Below are positions 1,995-38,300 of a stretch of 38,435 nt of DNA, one piece after another (position 1 is the first letter of the stretch; the number at the start of each line of letters is the position of its first letter). A program made the position numbers and the translations under genes. Origin of the DNA: a virus. A model generated the notes under the pieces. It did not search any database, was not told the DNA's origin, and saw nothing but the letters and a program-made list of their open reading frames with translations. The stretch is from IMG/VR virus record IMGVR_UViG_3300010370_000008, positions 1-38,435 of that record. One strand, 5' to 3'.

Positions 1995-4214
1995 ATGGAC
2001 TATTCAGGGGTAGCTGCGGCAGGCCGTGTGTCTAGCGGGGGCGGGTCTCGTAAGAAAGACCCGGCGACTGTGCTTGACACCATGCGTAGCCGTCTGACGA
2101 TGGCTATTTCTGCTTATTCTGAAAGCCGCGAGGACGAGCTGGACGACCTGCGGTTCTTTGCCGGATCGCCCGACAACCAGTGGCAGTGGCCTGCGGACGT
2201 GCTGGCTACTCGTGGTTTGGTGCAGGGGCAGACAATCAACGCCCGGCCTTGCCTGACCATCAACAAGTTGCCCCAACATGTGCGCCAGGTAACCAATGAT
2301 CAGAGACAGAATCGACCCAGTGGTAAAGTCATCCCTGTCGATGACAAGGCGGACGTGGAAGTTGCTGAAATCTATGATGGTATCGTGCGCCATATTGAGT
2401 ATATGTCGGACGCAGACGTGGCTTACGATACTGCTTGCGAAAATCAGGTAACCTATGGTGAGGGATACATTCGGCTGCTGACGGAGTATTGCGGCGATGA
2501 CACGTTCGATCAGGACATCCGCATCGGGCGCATTCGCAACTCTTTTAGTGTGTACATGGACCCCACCATCCAAGATCCATGCGGCTCTGACGCCAAATGG
2601 TGTTTTATTACAGAAGATCTCACGCGTTCTGAGTACGAGCGCCTTTTTCCCGACGCCATGCCCGTCTCGTCCATCCAACAGCAAGGCGTGGGCGACGAAA
2701 ACCTGTCCAACTGGCTGAATGAAGACGTAGTCCGCATTGCAGAGTACTTTTACATCGACTACGAGCCCGCCAAACTCAATTTGTACCCCGACAATCGCAC
2801 CGCATTTGAAGGAAGCCGCGAAGACGCCATGTTTAAGGCGTCTGGATTGACACCGCTCAAGAGCCGCAACGTGGACCGCAAGCGCGTTAAGTGGTGCAAG
2901 ACCAACGGCTACGAAATGCTGGAAGAAAACGATTGGGCGGGCCAGTGGATTCCGGTCATTCGCGTCGTTGGCAACGAATTTGAGGTTGATGGCCGTCTTT
3001 TTGTGTCTGGATTAGTGCGAAACGCCAAAGACGCCCAACGGATGTACAACTATTGGGTATCCGCCGAGACCGAAATGCTGGCTTTGGCTCCCAAAGCGCC
3101 ATTTATCGGCTACGGAGGCCAGTTTGAAGGCTATGAGCAGCAATGGAAGACCGCAAATGTCAATAACTGGCCTTATTTGGAGGTCAATCCTGACGTTACG
3201 GACGGCCAAGGTGCTGTTTTGCCTCTTCCGCAGCGCGCAGCGCCTCCAATGGCTCAGGTTGGCCTTATTCAGGCTAAGGCAGGCGCGTCTGACGACATCA
3301 AATCGACCACTGGTCAGTACGACAGTAGCCTTGGCGCGACCAGCAACGAACGGTCTGGACGAGCAATATTGGCTCGTGAAAAACAAGGCGATACAGGCAC
3401 ATATCACTACGTTGACAATCTCGCCCGCGCCATCCGATATACGACGCGTCAGATCGTAGATATGATTCCCAAAATCTATGACACCCAGCGCATCGCTCGC
3501 ATCATTGGCATTGATGGCGAAACGGGCATGGCTAAGATTGACCCGACGCAACAAGAGCCCGTCAAGAAAATTGTAGCGCCCGACAATCCGTCGATTGTCA
3601 TTGAAAAAATCTACAACCCCGGCGTCGGCAAGTATGATGTGTGCGTCACAACCGGCCCAAGCTACATGACCAAGCGTCAAGAAGCTCTTGATTCCATGTC
3701 GCAGCTTCTTCAAGGCAACCCGGCTCTTTGGGCGGTCGCTGGTGACCTGTTCATCAAGAACATGGATTGGCCTGGCGCGCAGGAAATGTCCCAGCGGTTT
3801 GCCAAGACCATCGACCCCAAACTTCTTGAGACGGACGACAAATCTCCGGCGCTTCAGGCTGCTGAACAGCAGATGCAAGCGATGGCGCAAGAAATGGAAA
3901 TGATGCACAAGATGCTTCAGAACGTCCATCAGTCCGTCGAAGTGCAGGATCTTGAGCGCAAGAACTTTGAGGCGACAATCAAAGCGTTTGACGCCGAGAC
4001 CAAGCGCCTTGCCGCCGTTCAAGCGTCTATGTCTCCAGAACAAATCCAAGACATTGTCATGGGCACTGTCCACGGCATGATCACCAGCGGCGATTTGGCG
4101 GGCGAGATGCCCGGCCAGCAGTTGCTAGGCGAAGAAATGCCAATGGAAATGCCGCAAGGAATGGCCCCCGAAATGCCGCCCCAAGGAATGCCACCGCAGG
4201 GAATGCCGCAATGA
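1995..4214 (+). CDS. Portal protein, P22-like
   Basis: A 739-aa portal protein, close to the 725 aa of P22 gp1. It forms the dodecameric ring at one capsid vertex through which DNA is packaged and ejected and to which the tail binds. The recognisable N-terminal part includes DDLRFFAGSPDNQWQWP and RPCLTINKLPQHVRQVTND, then FSVYMDPTIQDPCGSDA, all typical of this family. The C-terminal third is helical and Gln/Met/Lys-rich (coiled-coil-like, about residues 620-690), matching the barrel region of P22-type portals. It ends in a short Met-Pro-Gln-Gly repeat. ATG 1995 is preferred over an upstream TTG-like start because AAGGTAAGTGAC precedes it. Confidence 0.95.
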   Translation: MDYSGVAAAGRVSSGGGSRKKDPATVLDTMRSRLTMAISAYSESREDELDDLRFFAGSPDNQWQWPADVLATRGLVQGQTINARPCLTINKLPQHVRQVTNDQRQNRPSGKVIPVDDKADVEVAEIYDGIVRHIEYMSDADVAYDTACENQVTYGEGYIRLLTEYCGDDTFDQDIRIGRIRNSFSVYMDPTIQDPCGSDAKWCFITEDLTRSEYERLFPDAMPVSSIQQQGVGDENLSNWLNEDVVRIAEYFYIDYEPAKLNLYPDNRTAFEGSREDAMFKASGLTPLKSRNVDRKRVKWCKTNGYEMLEENDWAGQWIPVIRVVGNEFEVDGRLFVSGLVRNAKDAQRMYNYWVSAETEMLALAPKAPFIGYGGQFEGYEQQWKTANVNNWPYLEVNPDVTDGQGAVLPLPQRAAPPMAQVGLIQAKAGASDDIKSTTGQYDSSLGATSNERSGRAILAREKQGDTGTYHYVDNLARAIRYTTRQIVDMIPKIYDTQRIARIIGIDGETGMAKIDPTQQEPVKKIVAPDNPSIVIEKIYNPGVGKYDVCVTTGPSYMTKRQEALDSMSQLLQGNPALWAVAGDLFIKNMDWPGAQEMSQRFAKTIDPKLLETDDKSPALQAAEQQMQAMAQEMEMMHKMLQNVHQSVEVQDLERKNFEATIKAFDAETKRLAAVQASMSPEQIQDIVMGTVHGMITSGDLAGEMPGQQLLGEEMPMEMPQGMAPEMPPQGMPPQGMPQ

Positions 4215-29830: not shown

Positions 29831-32173
29831 ATGCAAGAACAACAATTCTACGAGTATATCACGGGGCTTGCCCCAGCAGGCGAGACGGCACTGCTGGTGC
29901 GCCAGAAGCCCGTCATGCGCGACGGCGAGCAACAGACGTTCCTTGACGGTTCGCTAAAGTACACCTGGCCCGCGTACATGCCCACCAAGCCGCGCGAGGA
30001 AGGCGAGGCGTGGTATCTTAACACTGGCTCGTTTATGGCGTCACGCTTCCTCGACGGTAGGCCCAGCGCCAGCGCCGCCAACTGCGATTACGTCCTTTGC
30101 ATGATGCTGGATGATATTGGCACCAAGTCCAAGGTGCCTCCGTTGCCGCCGACGTGGATCATGGAGACCAGCGAAGGTTCTTTCCAGTGGGGCTACGGTT
30201 TCAGTGAGCAGCCATCCAAGGGCGAGTTCAGCGCGGCCATTACCGCCATTGCGGAGGCAGGCTACACGGACCCCGGCGCAATCAACCCAGTACGGAATTT
30301 CCGTATTCCCGGTTCTGTCAATCTGAAGCCCGGTCGCGATCTCTTTCGTTCGCGTTTGGTCGAGTTTCACCCAGATCGTGAGTACACGTTACCTCAGATC
30401 TGCGAGGCGCTGGGCGTCACGCCAGCGGAGGCCGACACGGCGCGCGTCCTGTCGTTCAAGCTGCGCGACACCGGCAAGGACACCGTGCTGGAGTGGCTCA
30501 ACAACGCCGGTCTGGTGCTGTCGCAGACGAATGCAGAGGGATGGATGGGCATTGTGTGCCCCAACCACGCCGAACACACGGACGGCCAGATCGGAGCCCG
30601 CTACAAGCCGTTGGATCGGTCGTTCTGCTGCTACCACGGCCACTGCGAGGGATTCAATTCGCAGATGTTTTTGAAGTGGGTGCATGAAAATGGCGGCCCA
30701 CGCGTCTCGCCAGGTCTGCGCGACGAGTTGCTGGCGCAGCACATGCAGTCCACGCTATCGAAACTGTCGCCCACAGAGGCGTTTCCTGACGAGGCCGCCA
30801 AGGTTATCGCCGAAGTGGAGCGCAAGGAAATCGGACGCGTGGACAAGGCGAACTGGTACGAACGGTTCGCCTACATCATGGAAGACGACGCCTATTTCGA
30901 CATGGACGCCCGCACCGAGATCAGCCGGAGCAGCTTCAACGCCATCTTCCGTCACGTCACCTGCAAGTCCATCCACGTCACCGGCAAGGGCGGACGGCGC
31001 ATCGAGGCCAGCGTGTGCTATGATGAGAACCGCGCCGCCGCCAACGCCCGGCTGCTGCGCGGCATCACATACGCCGCCGGTGATGGGGTGCTGGTGTCGC
31101 GTGACGGTGACGTGTACGGCAACCGCTGGCGCGACGCCCGGCCTGACCTGAGCGGCGTTGCGTCCGGCGACGTGTCCCAGTGGCTCGATCATTGTCGGAC
31201 GCTGGTGCCCGAAGAGGCTGAGTTAAACCATTGCCTCGACGTGATGGCGTTCAAGCTCCAGAACCCGCGCGTCAAGATCAACCATGCGGTGCTGCATGGC
31301 GGCGACGAAGGCTCCGGCAAGGACACCATGTGGGCGCCGTTTATCTGGAGCGTTTGCGGGCCAGGACTCAAGAACAGGGGTCTGGTGGACAACGACGGAC
31401 TGACTTCGCAGTGGGGCTATGCGCTGGAGTCGGAGATCCTGATCCTGAACGAGCTGAAGGAGCCTGACGCCAAGGAACGCCGCGCGCTTGCCAATAAACT
31501 CAAGCCCATCATCGCCGCGCCGCCGGAGACGCTGCCGATCAACCGCAAGGGTCTGCACCCCTACGACATGGTCAATCGCATGATGGTGCTGGCGTTCACC
31601 AACGATCCCGTGCCTATCTCGATCTCGTCCGGCGACCGTCGCTGGTTCTGCATCTGGTCCGCAGCGGGGCGCATGGACCCAAGCGCGGCTCAGAAGCTCT
31701 GGGGCTGGTATCGTAGCGGCGGGTTCGAGACCATAGCTCGGTGGCTCGCAGACCGCGACGTGAGCGCCTTCAATCCGTCTGCGCCGCCCATGTGGACCGA
31801 GTTTAAGGAGAACCTGATCGAGAACGGCATGAGCATCGCCGAGAGTTACATCTTGGACCAGATCCGGTCCAAGACCGGTGAGTTCGCCAAGGGCGTGGTC
31901 GCTACGCCGTTCTTTAACCTATGCCAGTATTTGACGGTGAACGCCCCCGGCGGCGTTAAAATCCCGCAGGCCGCATTGCTTCACGCTCTTAAAGAGGCCG
32001 GATGGGTGGACATGGGGCGCATAGGATCGTTCGAGCATTCCAGCAAGCGCCACATCTACGCTGCGCCCGATCTGGCGCGGACGCAGACGAAGAGCTATCT
32101 GCGAAACCTGCTGGAAAGCGGAAACGGCGGCGGCGGTAATGTAATCGGCTTTCCTGGCCGTACCGCAAGCTGA
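29831..32173 (+). CDS. Primase-helicase (RepB-like primase plus SF3/D5-type helicase)
   Basis: A 780-aa fusion. The N-terminal primase half has an acidic motif MMLDDIGTKS (91-100) and RNFRIPGSVNLKPG (155-168), typical of RepB/AEP-like phage primases. A Cys/His cluster follows (Cys243, His246, Cys266, Cys267, His269, Cys272), a probable zinc site. The C-terminal helicase has Walker A GGDEGSGKDT (490-499), then ILILNELKEP and a segment ending MMVLAFTNDP, as in SF3/D5-like ATPases (DUF5906-like). It begins three bases after the polymerase stop with GGGGTAGGAC as ribosome binding site and ends the replication operon. Confidence 0.93.
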   Translation: MQEQQFYEYITGLAPAGETALLVRQKPVMRDGEQQTFLDGSLKYTWPAYMPTKPREEGEAWYLNTGSFMASRFLDGRPSASAANCDYVLCMMLDDIGTKSKVPPLPPTWIMETSEGSFQWGYGFSEQPSKGEFSAAITAIAEAGYTDPGAINPVRNFRIPGSVNLKPGRDLFRSRLVEFHPDREYTLPQICEALGVTPAEADTARVLSFKLRDTGKDTVLEWLNNAGLVLSQTNAEGWMGIVCPNHAEHTDGQIGARYKPLDRSFCCYHGHCEGFNSQMFLKWVHENGGPRVSPGLRDELLAQHMQSTLSKLSPTEAFPDEAAKVIAEVERKEIGRVDKANWYERFAYIMEDDAYFDMDARTEISRSSFNAIFRHVTCKSIHVTGKGGRRIEASVCYDENRAAANARLLRGITYAAGDGVLVSRDGDVYGNRWRDARPDLSGVASGDVSQWLDHCRTLVPEEAELNHCLDVMAFKLQNPRVKINHAVLHGGDEGSGKDTMWAPFIWSVCGPGLKNRGLVDNDGLTSQWGYALESEILILNELKEPDAKERRALANKLKPIIAAPPETLPINRKGLHPYDMVNRMMVLAFTNDPVPISISSGDRRWFCIWSAAGRMDPSAAQKLWGWYRSGGFETIARWLADRDVSAFNPSAPPMWTEFKENLIENGMSIAESYILDQIRSKTGEFAKGVVATPFFNLCQYLTVNAPGGVKIPQAALLHALKEAGWVDMGRIGSFEHSSKRHIYAAPDLARTQTKSYLRNLLESGNGGGGNVIGFPGRTAS

Positions 32174-34482: not shown

Positions 34483-34791
34483 TTAGGCGGCTCTGGTAAG
34501 GTCATCCAATGGGTGGGGCATGGCGACGGGCGCCTGCGTCAGTTCGCGCAGCGCCAGTTCGAAGTAGCCCGCGCCGTCCTGCCAGTGGTCGGGATGAGCT
34601 GGGTCGCCGCACAGGATGCGCGCCATCTTGTCGGCGATGACCTCCAGCGCCTGCGCCTGCGTCACGTCGAGGCGTTCCCAGTTGCGCGACGAGCGCAACA
34701 GGTTCTTGATGGCTTGCGAGTAGCCCGCGACCTCGCGGAAGGAGCCGTGGGTTAGCTCGCGGTCGGCTAGTATCTGGTCAATCATGGTCAT
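34483..34791 (-). CDS. DUF6378-like protein
   Basis: A 102-aa protein with the DUF6378-type pattern: ILADRELTHGSFREVAGYSQ near the start, QALEVIADKMARILCGDP, then HPDHWQDGAGYFELALREL. The His/Asp arrangement (THG, GDPAHPDHW-D) resembles small phage proteins related to MazG-type nucleotide hydrolases, but I would not assign an activity. It overlaps the upstream DnaA-like gene by four bases (ATGA), which fixes the start at 34791 rather than the longer frame. Confidence 0.8.
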   Translation of the reverse strand: MTMIDQILADRELTHGSFREVAGYSQAIKNLLRSSRNWERLDVTQAQALEVIADKMARILCGDPAHPDHWQDGAGYFELALRELTQAPVAMPHPLDDLTRAA

Positions 34792-35192
34792 GGCGTGTTT
34801 ATCCAGTTCTGGAGGGCGTTCATCACGGTTGTGTGGTCGCGGTTGCAGTAGATCGCAATCTTTTTGAGGGACCATCCATGCCTGCGCAGGGCGACGTAGA
34901 CGGCGGTGCGCGCGGCTATGTAGGGCATGGTTCGGCTTGGCCCCATAGCCTGCTCGAAGGTCATGCCGTGGGGCGCCAGCGCCTCGCGGACGATGGCCTT
35001 GGCGGCGCTGGGCGTGAACCGGAACGCCGGACCAGGCGGTTCGCGTTCCGGTTCGGGCGGCGGGGGCTCCGGTTCGGGCGCCGGTTCGGGCGGCGGGGCG
35101 ACCAGCGCCGGGCGGGGCGTCGGGCGCGGGGCGTTGAGCCTGGCGCGCACGGCCTTGTAGTGGTCGGTCAGGGCTAGGAAGTAGTCGCTCAC
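34788..35192 (-). CDS. DnaA domain IV-like DNA-binding protein
   Basis: A 134-aa protein in three parts: an N-terminal helix (SDYFLALTDHYKAVRARL), a Pro/Glu-rich linker (about residues 21-55) and a C-terminal domain (about 60-130) resembling the DNA-binding domain IV of DnaA. YIAARTAVYVALRRHGWSLK then KIAIYCNRDHTTVMNALQNW carries the RDHTTV signature (118-123), whose Arg, His and Thr residues read the DnaA box in the host initiator. No AAA+ ATPase domain is present. GTG 35192 overlaps the upstream stop (GTGA). It could recognise host DnaA boxes or the phage origin. Confidence 0.8.
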   Translation of the reverse strand: MSDYFLALTDHYKAVRARLNAPRPTPRPALVAPPPEPAPEPEPPPPEPEREPPGPAFRFTPSAAKAIVREALAPHGMTFEQAMGPSRTMPYIAARTAVYVALRRHGWSLKKIAIYCNRDHTTVMNALQNWINTP

Positions 35193-35383
35193 GGGACCAT
35201 CTCCATCAGCCAGCGCCGGGCGTCCGCTTCGTCGCGGGCGTAGCCCAGCGCCCCTAGGACGCTTACGCAGCGCCATGCGCGGGCGTGGGTGCGCTTGTAG
35301 CGCACGGGGCCGTAATGGCCCAGCAAACGCCCGTAGTAGCTCACGGTGCGCGTTGCGTCGGGGTGGGTCTGGACGGTTACCAT
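35189..35383 (-). CDS. Small basic protein of unknown function
   Basis: A 64-aa protein, MVTVQTHPDATRTVSYYGRL followed by LGHYGPVRYKRTHARAWRCV and SVLGALGYARDEADARRWL. It is rich in Arg, Tyr and His, with no catalytic motif recognised. Placed between two coupled genes: its ATG shares a base with the upstream stop (TGATG), and its stop overlaps the GTG of the DnaA-like gene. Longer in-frame reading upstream would overlap the preceding gene. Confidence 0.65.
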   Translation of the reverse strand: MVTVQTHPDATRTVSYYGRLLGHYGPVRYKRTHARAWRCVSVLGALGYARDEADARRWLMEMVP

Positions 35384-35658
35384 CACGCTCTCCGATTTTG
35401 AGCGCGCACCGCGCGCAGGATCTCGTGCCCATCGCTCGCCCACACGCCGGAGGCGCAGGGGCACGGGTGCGTCGGAAGCTCCCGCGCCAGTTCGCGGGCC
35501 TGTAGCGCGCGTATGGCGCTCAGGACCGCCTGACCGTAAGCGTGACGGTCGGCGGCGGGGTCGCGACGGTAACGGTCCAGCCCGGCGAGGGTCGGATAGG
35601 GTTTCTGATCGGCGTAGAAACCGTTCATGTCGTCATATGTGCGGATTTGCTTTGCCAT
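35383..35658 (-). CDS. Small phage protein of unknown function
   Basis: A 91-aa protein starting MAKQIRTYDDMNGFYADQKP, with RYRRDPAADRHAYGQAVLSA, then a C-terminal CPCASGVWASDGHEILRAVR. A Cys-x-Cys pair (CPC) near residue 68 is the only metal-site hint. TCTGGAGGTCTGACC gives a strong ribosome binding site for ATG 35658; an upstream in-frame ATG at 35703 lacks one. First of a run of five coupled genes extending to the DUF6378-like gene and the mini-gene after it. Confidence 0.68.
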   Translation of the reverse strand: MAKQIRTYDDMNGFYADQKPYPTLAGLDRYRRDPAADRHAYGQAVLSAIRALQARELARELPTHPCPCASGVWASDGHEILRAVRAQNRRA

Positions 35659-36979: not shown

Positions 36980-37159
36980 TCAAAAGTTCCAAGGCTTGAT
37001 CCCGCGCACTCTACAAATTTCGCGGGCAATCTTTTTGCTTGATGCGGGCACAATCTCCGCGTTCTGCAATTCTGCGCCATTGCAGGGTTGCGCGACAACA
37101 TGAAGGATGAATTTGTAGGTTGCGTTGCGGAGCGGGTTTTTGAACAGATAAGCTACCAT
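36980..37159 (-). CDS. Small basic protein, first gene of the leftward accessory block
   Basis: A 59-aa protein: MVAYLFKNPLRNATYKFILH, then VVAQPCNGAELQNAEIVPAS and SKKIAREICRVRGIKPWNF. The second half has a helix with basic residues. No recognised family. CAGGGGACGTAAG gives a strong ribosome binding site. Being first after the 634-bp gene-free region, it would be the earliest translated product of a leftward transcript from that region. Confidence 0.65.
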   Translation of the reverse strand: MVAYLFKNPLRNATYKFILHVVAQPCNGAELQNAEIVPASSKKIAREICRVRGIKPWNF

Positions 37160-37292
37160 CTTACGTCCCCTGGGTTGTGGCGCTCGTTTGCGCCGGTTCG
37201 ATGAGAATCACTGTAAAGGATTTTCTAGCATTAGCAAGCGGAAATTGCAGGATAGCGAAAAAAAAGATTTTTGGTCTGGTGTTTGGTCGGGA

Positions 37293-37621
37293 TTAGGCGC
37301 GTCTTTAGGCGTGCGAATTGCCCGGATTTTCGGGCTGTTAGGCTATTTAGGCTATTATCTATATATACCTTTAGAAATTTAAATGTATATTGTATAGCTA
37401 GAGTTGACGTGTAATTCTGGGAGCGACTGAAACCTGATAGCCTAAAACGACTAAATGACTATGCCCCGCGCTGACACCATTGCCCGCGTTTCATGTCGCC
37501 GTTTCGCATAGGTCATTTAGGCTATCGTTTGCCCATAGCCTAAATAGCCTAACGCCACGCGGGCGCCCGGCAAGCATCAAACGCAATGCGCGACAGTCTG
37601 CTGATGGCCTAAATAGCCTAA
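37293..37621. repeat. Iteron-like array of the 9-mer TTAGGCTAT
   Basis: Perfect or near-perfect copies occur mostly as head-to-tail pairs in both orientations. Sites: TTAGGCTAT twice at 37338-37355 (+); ATAGCCTAA at 37437-37445 (-), followed by a weaker copy; ATAGGTCAT plus TTAGGCTAT at 37508-37525 (+); ATAGCCTAA twice at 37535-37552 (-); ATGGCCTAA plus ATAGCCTAA at 37604-37621 (-). Seven copies are exact. Two extra TTAGGC cores lie at 37293-37298 and 37305-37310. Arrays like this are typical of replication initiator or repressor binding sites. Confidence 0.85.
37350..37405. promoter_or_regulatory. AT-rich stretch, possible unwinding element or leftward promoter
   Basis: This segment is strongly AT-rich compared with its surroundings (TTATCTATATATACC, TTTAGAAATTTAAATG, TATATTGTATAGC). 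It directly abuts the first iteron pair. It could be the melting element of an origin. On the - strand it contains GATAAT and TACAAT, both -10-like, so leftward promoters for the accessory block are also possible, although no good -35 is paired with either. Confidence 0.55.
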
Positions 37622-37793
37622 TGCGCCCATGCCCCAATCTTATTGCTGTGCTTATGTTGCTATTGTCTTGATTGTGTTGGTATTGCCTAGGCCATGTAGT
37701 AATTGCTCAGGTTAAGCTCAAGGGGGGGGTAGGGCCTGCTGCCGCCCGGTCACGGTCACGGAGGGATTGCAAACAATTTTTATTTTTTATAAA

Positions 37794-38300
37794 ATGTCTT
37801 ACATGACATGGCACACCCTCCCACACGAACCGCGCAAACTTCAGGCAACTGAGGCGCGGCTTGACGCCATCTATTGGGCGGCGCGCAATGGGTTGAAAGG
37901 TGACACGCTGGCGTTGGCTGCGGGTATGCGTCCATCTGAGTACCGGCAGCTTTGCGAGTTTGATCCACTGGCGGAGATGGCGGAGCAAAAGGGCCGCGCT
38001 GATGGCGAGATGGAAGTGTCCGGCATATTGCATGAGGCGGCGCGGGCTGGGGACGCCAAAGCGGCGCTGGAGATCTTGAAACACGCGCATGGTTGGACGG
38101 CCAAGACGGCTGTAGACATCAGCATCGACCAGACCATTTCGGTCAAACACGCATTAGAAATGGCTCAACAGCGAGTGCTGGAAGGGGCGTTTACTGTCGT
38201 GGAACAGTTAGAGGACATGGACCGTGCAGGCACCGATATACTCGGCCCAGGACGAAATGGAATTGATGTCGCGGTTATGGACGCCGGGGCTGAAGAATGA
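37794..38300 (+). CDS. terS: Terminase small subunit
   Basis: A 168-aa DNA-recognition subunit of the packaging terminase. Segments LQATEARLDAIYWAARNGLK, LALAAGMRPSEYRQLCEFDP and AEMAEQKGRADGEMEVSG match the small-terminase type of many podovirus-like phages; AARAGDAKAALEILKHAHGW and an oligomerising helix (SVKHALEMAQQRVLEGAF) follow. It lies directly before terL and overlaps it. Start uncertain: ATG 37794 and ATG 37803 have no ribosome binding site in their T-rich leader, whereas GGAGGG at 37760-37765 is better placed for codons further upstream. Confidence 0.85.
   Translation: MSYMTWHTLPHEPRKLQATEARLDAIYWAARNGLKGDTLALAAGMRPSEYRQLCEFDPLAEMAEQKGRADGEMEVSGILHEAARAGDAKAALEILKHAHGWTAKTAVDISIDQTISVKHALEMAQQRVLEGAFTVVEQLEDMDRAGTDILGPGRNGIDVAVMDAGAEE

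Follow-up and report, generated by a model that had tools for sequence, protein, structure and literature searches.

PICI origins always contain two iteron sets placed around an AT-rich region (PMC6092414), and the Rep protein of SaPI recognizes its iterons by means of its C-terminal domain (PMC7581432). Cch2 of SCCmec, a D5-type helicase, offers a comparable case: its C-terminal domain, taken in isolation, binds direct repeats present at its putative origin (PMC7581432). Here we describe an array of 9-bp repeats in a P22-like phage (IMG/VR record IMGVR_UViG_3300010370_000008, analyzed over all of its 38,435 nucleotides and referred to below as the window), and propose that this array is probably the iteron origin of the phage, whose own primase-helicase, of the NrS-1/D5 type, would recognize it through its C-terminus.

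Like the SaPI/PICI module, the window array has two iteron sets around an AT-rich region. Unlike in SaPI/PICI, where the origin lies directly 3' of rep, 5.1 kb separate the proposed phage origin from the initiator gene (gene end 32173, array start 37338), and because it is not 3' of that gene we have not filed it as a SaPI/PICI origin. Further differences are that the array occurs in autonomous P22-like phages, upstream of terS and across the leftward early genes, and that the phage units are 9-bp tandem pairs. Cch2 is likewise a D5-type initiator helicase, and its C-terminal binding to repeats parallels the binding proposed here, whereas its iterons are 5 bp long and follow immediately after the gene, and its primase is a separate protein. 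In satellite phage P4, replication is driven by a single primase and helicase protein, alpha, which binds the origin (ori/crr) by its C-terminus; the window phage may be analogous in this respect, although sequence and origin repeats differ. The helicase core is also related by sequence to that of the NrS-1 phage polymerase (PrimPol-helicase, PDB 6k9c/6lrb).

The phage (38.4 kb, from a freshwater family) encodes P22-like coat and portal proteins, and its map is circular, given that the contig carries a 123-bp terminal direct repeat and that the joined ends align to relatives. Replication genes occupy 25.9-32.2 kb and encode a PD-(D/E)XK/DUF2800 protein, DNA polymerase A, and the primase-helicase. 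A DnaA-domain-IV-like protein is encoded at 34788-35432 on the - strand (Bac_DnaA_C, E 5.9e-7, just under the Pfam cut-off); it is proline-rich with a C-terminal DnaA-domain-IV-like HTH (RDHTT). Every close relative encodes it, as does MW202483.1 (where the annotation reads 'dnaa protein helix-turn-helix'), but most of the family is without it. The array-bearing, gene-free region proposed as the replication origin (37160-37802) lies at the same place in relatives, with small early genes transcribed leftward on one side of the array and terS and late genes transcribed rightward on the other. Its left border is a conserved 59-aa gene that starts at 37159 and runs leftward, and its right border is terS, for which an ATG at 37803 is a more likely start than a TTG at 37767. 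Right before terS, at 37722-37768, a G-run followed by TAGGGCCTGCTGCCGCCCGGTCACGGTCACGGAGGGATTGC is strongly conserved to distant relatives (GGGGG..GGGCC..TGACTGTCACGGG) and may serve in packaging (cos/pac) or as a terminator-like element. One contig of the genome collection falls in a Methylococcaceae bin, which is too little for a host call.

Scanning the window confirmed the 9-mer repeats reported in the original prediction, namely seven exact copies of TTAGGCTAT (37338+, 37347+, 37437-, 37517+, 37535-, 37544-, and 37613-) and a copy with a single mismatch at 37604-. At up to one mismatch to TTAGGCTAT the window holds 13 matches, compared to 3.4 expected and a maximum of 9 in 100 shuffles. 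Across the whole 38.4-kb window there are no exact copies outside 37338-37621, and the possibility that the 9-mer is just as common elsewhere, which had been named as grounds for abandoning the prediction, is thus removed. The 18-bp site is a tandem pair of 9-mers, TTAGGCTAT-TTAGGCTAT or a near variant of it. Allowing up to three mismatches, five such sites were found in the window, in both orientations and all within 37338-37621; a reversed control pattern of the 18-mer yielded none in the window at the same threshold.

These sites are pair 1 (TTAGGCTATTTAGGCTAT, exact; 37338-37355, +), pair 2 (TTAGTCGTT-TTAGGCTAT, three mismatches; 37437-37454, -), pair 3 (ATAGGTCAT-TTAGGCTAT, three mismatches; 37508-37525, +), pair 4 (the exact 18-mer; 37535-37552, -), and pair 5 (TTAGGCTAT-TTAGGCCAT, one mismatch; 37604-37621, -), so that the exact 18-mer was recovered in both orientations, as predicted. 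A weak half copy, TTAGGCG, occurs twice at about 37293-37311 (+), at a distance of 12 bp, and is kept in relatives. Pairs 1 and 2, in opposite orientations, stand on the two sides of a 50-bp AT-rich stretch (37353-37402, GC 0.18), a proposed melting site or promoter, and pairs 3 and 4 are inverted relative to each other, 9 bp apart. The array therefore displays what is looked for in an iteron origin, that is, multiple short direct repeats gathered in a single part of the replicon with an AT-rich region alongside. GC skew, which had been suggested as a further check, shows no turn at the array and is uninformative as an origin signal.

Relatives were gathered by primase-helicase, 18-mer, and terS searches (about 200 loci). 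The intergenic region upstream of terS is common to more than 130 of them, and most carry arrays of 9-bp period there; in every case within the family, terS lies downstream of the array. Over 128 sites the 18-mer consensus is TTRGGCNNT-TTAGGCTAT. Alignments reveal that the order of + site, AT-rich stretch, - site, and further sites is kept in close and distant relatives alike, and in 24 of 34 non-redundant arrays the AT-richest 50 bp have tandem sites on either side. The region is thus kept along with the replication genes; its loss from relatives that retain those genes would have spoken against the prediction. The 9-mer itself differs by clade (ATAGCCTAA, ATGACCCAA, TTGTCCACA, ATTACCCAG, ATAGCCTAG, and others), a drift detected by a motif-free 9-bp periodicity test. 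Relatives devoid of TTAGGCTAT mostly have other tandem 9-mers at the same place with the 9-bp period intact, and nearly all clade units have a CC core, by which the register was in part chosen. Each clade's own 9-mer is confined to the array place in 11 of 12 genomes checked, the twelfth (L131) being without a tandem array. The iteron-like reading is supported by these observations, and we infer that the array is an origin and not a regulatory site alone.

Exact 18-mer matches were found in 45 viral contigs. More than 20 of these represent a single AT-rich coding family (LGYLGY, 469-aa ORF), which led us to reject the 18-mer as the site of a widespread host factor. The match in L088 looks like chance, and the remaining contigs other than L102 are relatives with the 18-mer upstream of terS. 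L102 has one exact 18-mer beside an AT-rich stretch (3084-3101, -) and no detectable relative of the window primase-helicase. In some relatives a second cluster with the local iteron core, its sites spaced about 10-12 bp (GGACGTCATT, AATGACCCAGAA), is present upstream of the main array (-700 to -560 from terS in L143 and L160; -715 to -640 in L162 and L198). The early region of L055 and L063 encodes a roughly 200-aa protein that, by eye, resembles the DNA polymerase III beta sliding clamp.

The proposed iteron-binding initiator, a 780-aa DUF5906 protein with an NrS-1/D5-like helicase (29831-32173, +), was characterized through sequence and fold matches. Residues 520-608 of its helicase core match NrS-1 primase structures by sequence (E 1.3e-4). 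In an AlphaFold2 model of the C-terminus built from 67 sequences, residues 661-763 (codons at 31811-32119, +) are confidently predicted as a winged helix (pLDDT about 90), with a helix at 713-722 and strands at 726-731 and 740-744. Segment 717-751 (codons at 31979-32083, +) comprises the end of that helix and the beta-hairpin wing; the helix QAALLHALKEAGW is almost invariant, and the residues that covary with the array sit in the hairpin. In the viral library, the fold is matched best by an NrS-1-like helicase protein (E 4e-14). A Foldseek search of the C-terminal model against the PDB returned no match below E 0.001, its list being rich in winged-helix proteins, including the N-terminal domain of pPS10 RepA, and the C-terminal profile found no relative when searched by sequence against the PDB. 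A single-sequence fold of the whole primase-helicase was useless (pLDDT 36).

Wing and array sequences covary. Among 46 non-redundant genomes, a sample that excludes about 280 further primase matches, the four 20-aa primase segments whose partial correlation with the array is strongest fall within residues 717-751 (r 0.43-0.45), while the best segment before residue 690 reaches 0.26, and the maxima for TerS and TerL are 0.25 and 0.35, respectively. When arrays were permuted inside four clades, the correlation of segment 717-751 was matched in 0 of 5000 permutations; the rest of the primase-helicase showed no correlation with the array under within-clade permutation (471 of 2000). The maximum statistic over all 35-residue segments within clades was 0.76, at residues 715-749, compared to a top value of 0.59 in 2000 permutations. 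Individual pairs display the same pattern: genomes with different units (L058 vs L060/L073 and L198 vs L133/L148) have about 11-13 differences around residues 703-755, whereas those with very similar units (L060 vs L073 and L133 vs L148) have none or almost none there and about 30 elsewhere.

Wing classes were assigned by the residue after GR[IVL] in DxGRxXS. Since these classes and the motif cores were set post hoc, the following match counts are descriptive and the permutation tests alone are inferential: class G accompanies CCTAA/CCTAG arrays in 39 of 40 cases; class K accompanies TCCACA in 9 of 11, with TTGTCCATC in the other two; class A preceded by DL accompanies ACCCAA/T in 13 of 13; class H accompanies ACCCAG in 2 of 3; and class N, which is poorly resolved, has the expected core in 2 of 9, although L143, L160, L168, and L196 have GACGTCA in common. 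Exceptions include L152 (N-type wing, CCTAG array) and L144 (H-type wing, GACGTCATT repeats), in which the disagreement may reflect either recent exchange or misassembly, as well as L017 (A at the G position, CCTAA array) and L012 (G-type, decayed array). Taken from sequence comparison, this covariation suggests that the docking specificity for iterons resides in the C-terminal winged helix, making this part of the primase-helicase a strong candidate for the array binder.

The stretch from primase to array holds early genes that vary greatly and have often been replaced, and block exchange of this region might by itself make wing and array covary. L198 and L133 argue against such hitch-hiking, which we regard as very unlikely: their wings differ and their arrays are completely different, yet the two genomes are co-linear across the primase-helicase gene and the 1.7 kb that follow, with 94-98% identity before the final 300 bp of the primase gene, 73-83% within them, 94-99% over the 600 bp after the gene, and 72-91% thereafter. 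Because the intervening 1.7 kb stays in conserved order at 72-99% identity, the wing and array changes are not one recombination block; wing and array thus appear to have changed together without replacement of the DNA between them. The wing-array correlation also falls outside residues ~700-770. Packaging offers another reading of the position of the array, which always lies directly upstream of terS, in that TerS could bind the repeats beside its own gene as a pac/cos site, and some phage packaging sites do contain repeats. Between L058 (unit TTGTCCACA) and L060/L073 (unit ATGACCCAA), however, TerS is 98% identical and its N-terminal HTH does not differ at all; the unit does not change with TerS, and we rejected this protein as the array reader. 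A packaging signal is better sought in the G-run element at 37722-37768, and we regard a packaging role of the array as extremely improbable.

We also consider it improbable to a high degree that the 9-mers are bound by the phage DnaA-domain-IV protein or by host DnaA. All close relatives encode the Bac_DnaA_C-like protein, and TTGTCCACA of some clades is a canonical DnaA box; however, the protein is missing from most array-bearing genomes, including L107, L117, L122, and L125, which have strong arrays of the window's unit, and its absence led us to reject it as a general binder. The window unit ATAGCCTAA does not match TTATNCACA or close variants, as units of some other clades do; ATAGCCTAA, ATGACCCAA, and ATCGCCTAG are without the CACA part of the DnaA box, which is also broken in the commonest units of L070 and L078. 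Of the binders named in the original prediction, the primase-helicase therefore gains from the wing covariation, while the DnaA-like protein finds no support as a general binder. The iterons of L076, L078, L082, and L058, upstream of terS, read TTGTCCACA, and no phage DnaA-like protein was detected in these four genomes; host DnaA might be recruited at the array of this clade, or the match might be coincidental. Unlikely, though less so, is that a regulator on the 18-mers controls the divergent promoters of the leftward early and rightward late genes, with replication secondary. The array does sit between divergent operons, site 1 adjoins a promoter-like -10 (GATAAT, 37359-37354, - strand), and the AT-rich stretch may act as a promoter. 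Promoter matches are, however, at chance level, no small early protein common to all array-bearing genomes was found, and the sole segment that tracks the unit lies in the primase-helicase. This protein could itself repress the early genes, the operator and origin readings not being exclusive, and an operator role of the same sites could coexist as autoregulation. A 110-aa early protein of L125 and L117, compared by eye as a diverged DnaA HTH, was rejected as not universal.

For an iteron origin read by the primase-helicase, we infer iteron binding, melting, and origin activity along the following lines. The C-terminal winged helix would dock on the tandem iterons that flank the AT-rich stretch, with the beta-hairpin wing (residues about 717-751) reading the variable 9-mer positions, and wing and array would therefore change together. 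By analogy to SaPI Rep, Cch2, and PICI origins, on which the steps after docking rest, the helicase would assemble at the iterons and load itself, as does SaPI/PICI Rep, the assembled helicase would open the AT-rich stretch at 37353-37402, and the primase would then begin synthesis.

This reading offers a specific candidate answer to the question of which protein reads the repeats, and places a SaPI/PICI-like layout in a large P22-like phage family in which initiator gene and origin are widely separated. Wing types and unit types form a natural series that can serve as a data set on how winged-helix DNA specificity changes, and pairing origins with initiators from sequence alone could become possible in uncultured phages. 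More tentatively, and as a possibility that we would not yet favor, the family may use satellite-type (SaPI/PICI-like) origins whose iteron specificity was switched at least five times through exchange of a wing of roughly 35 residues at the tip of the primase-helicase. If this is true, the wing/iteron pairs would provide a readable protein-DNA recognition code and would define replication compatibility groups among co-infecting phages.
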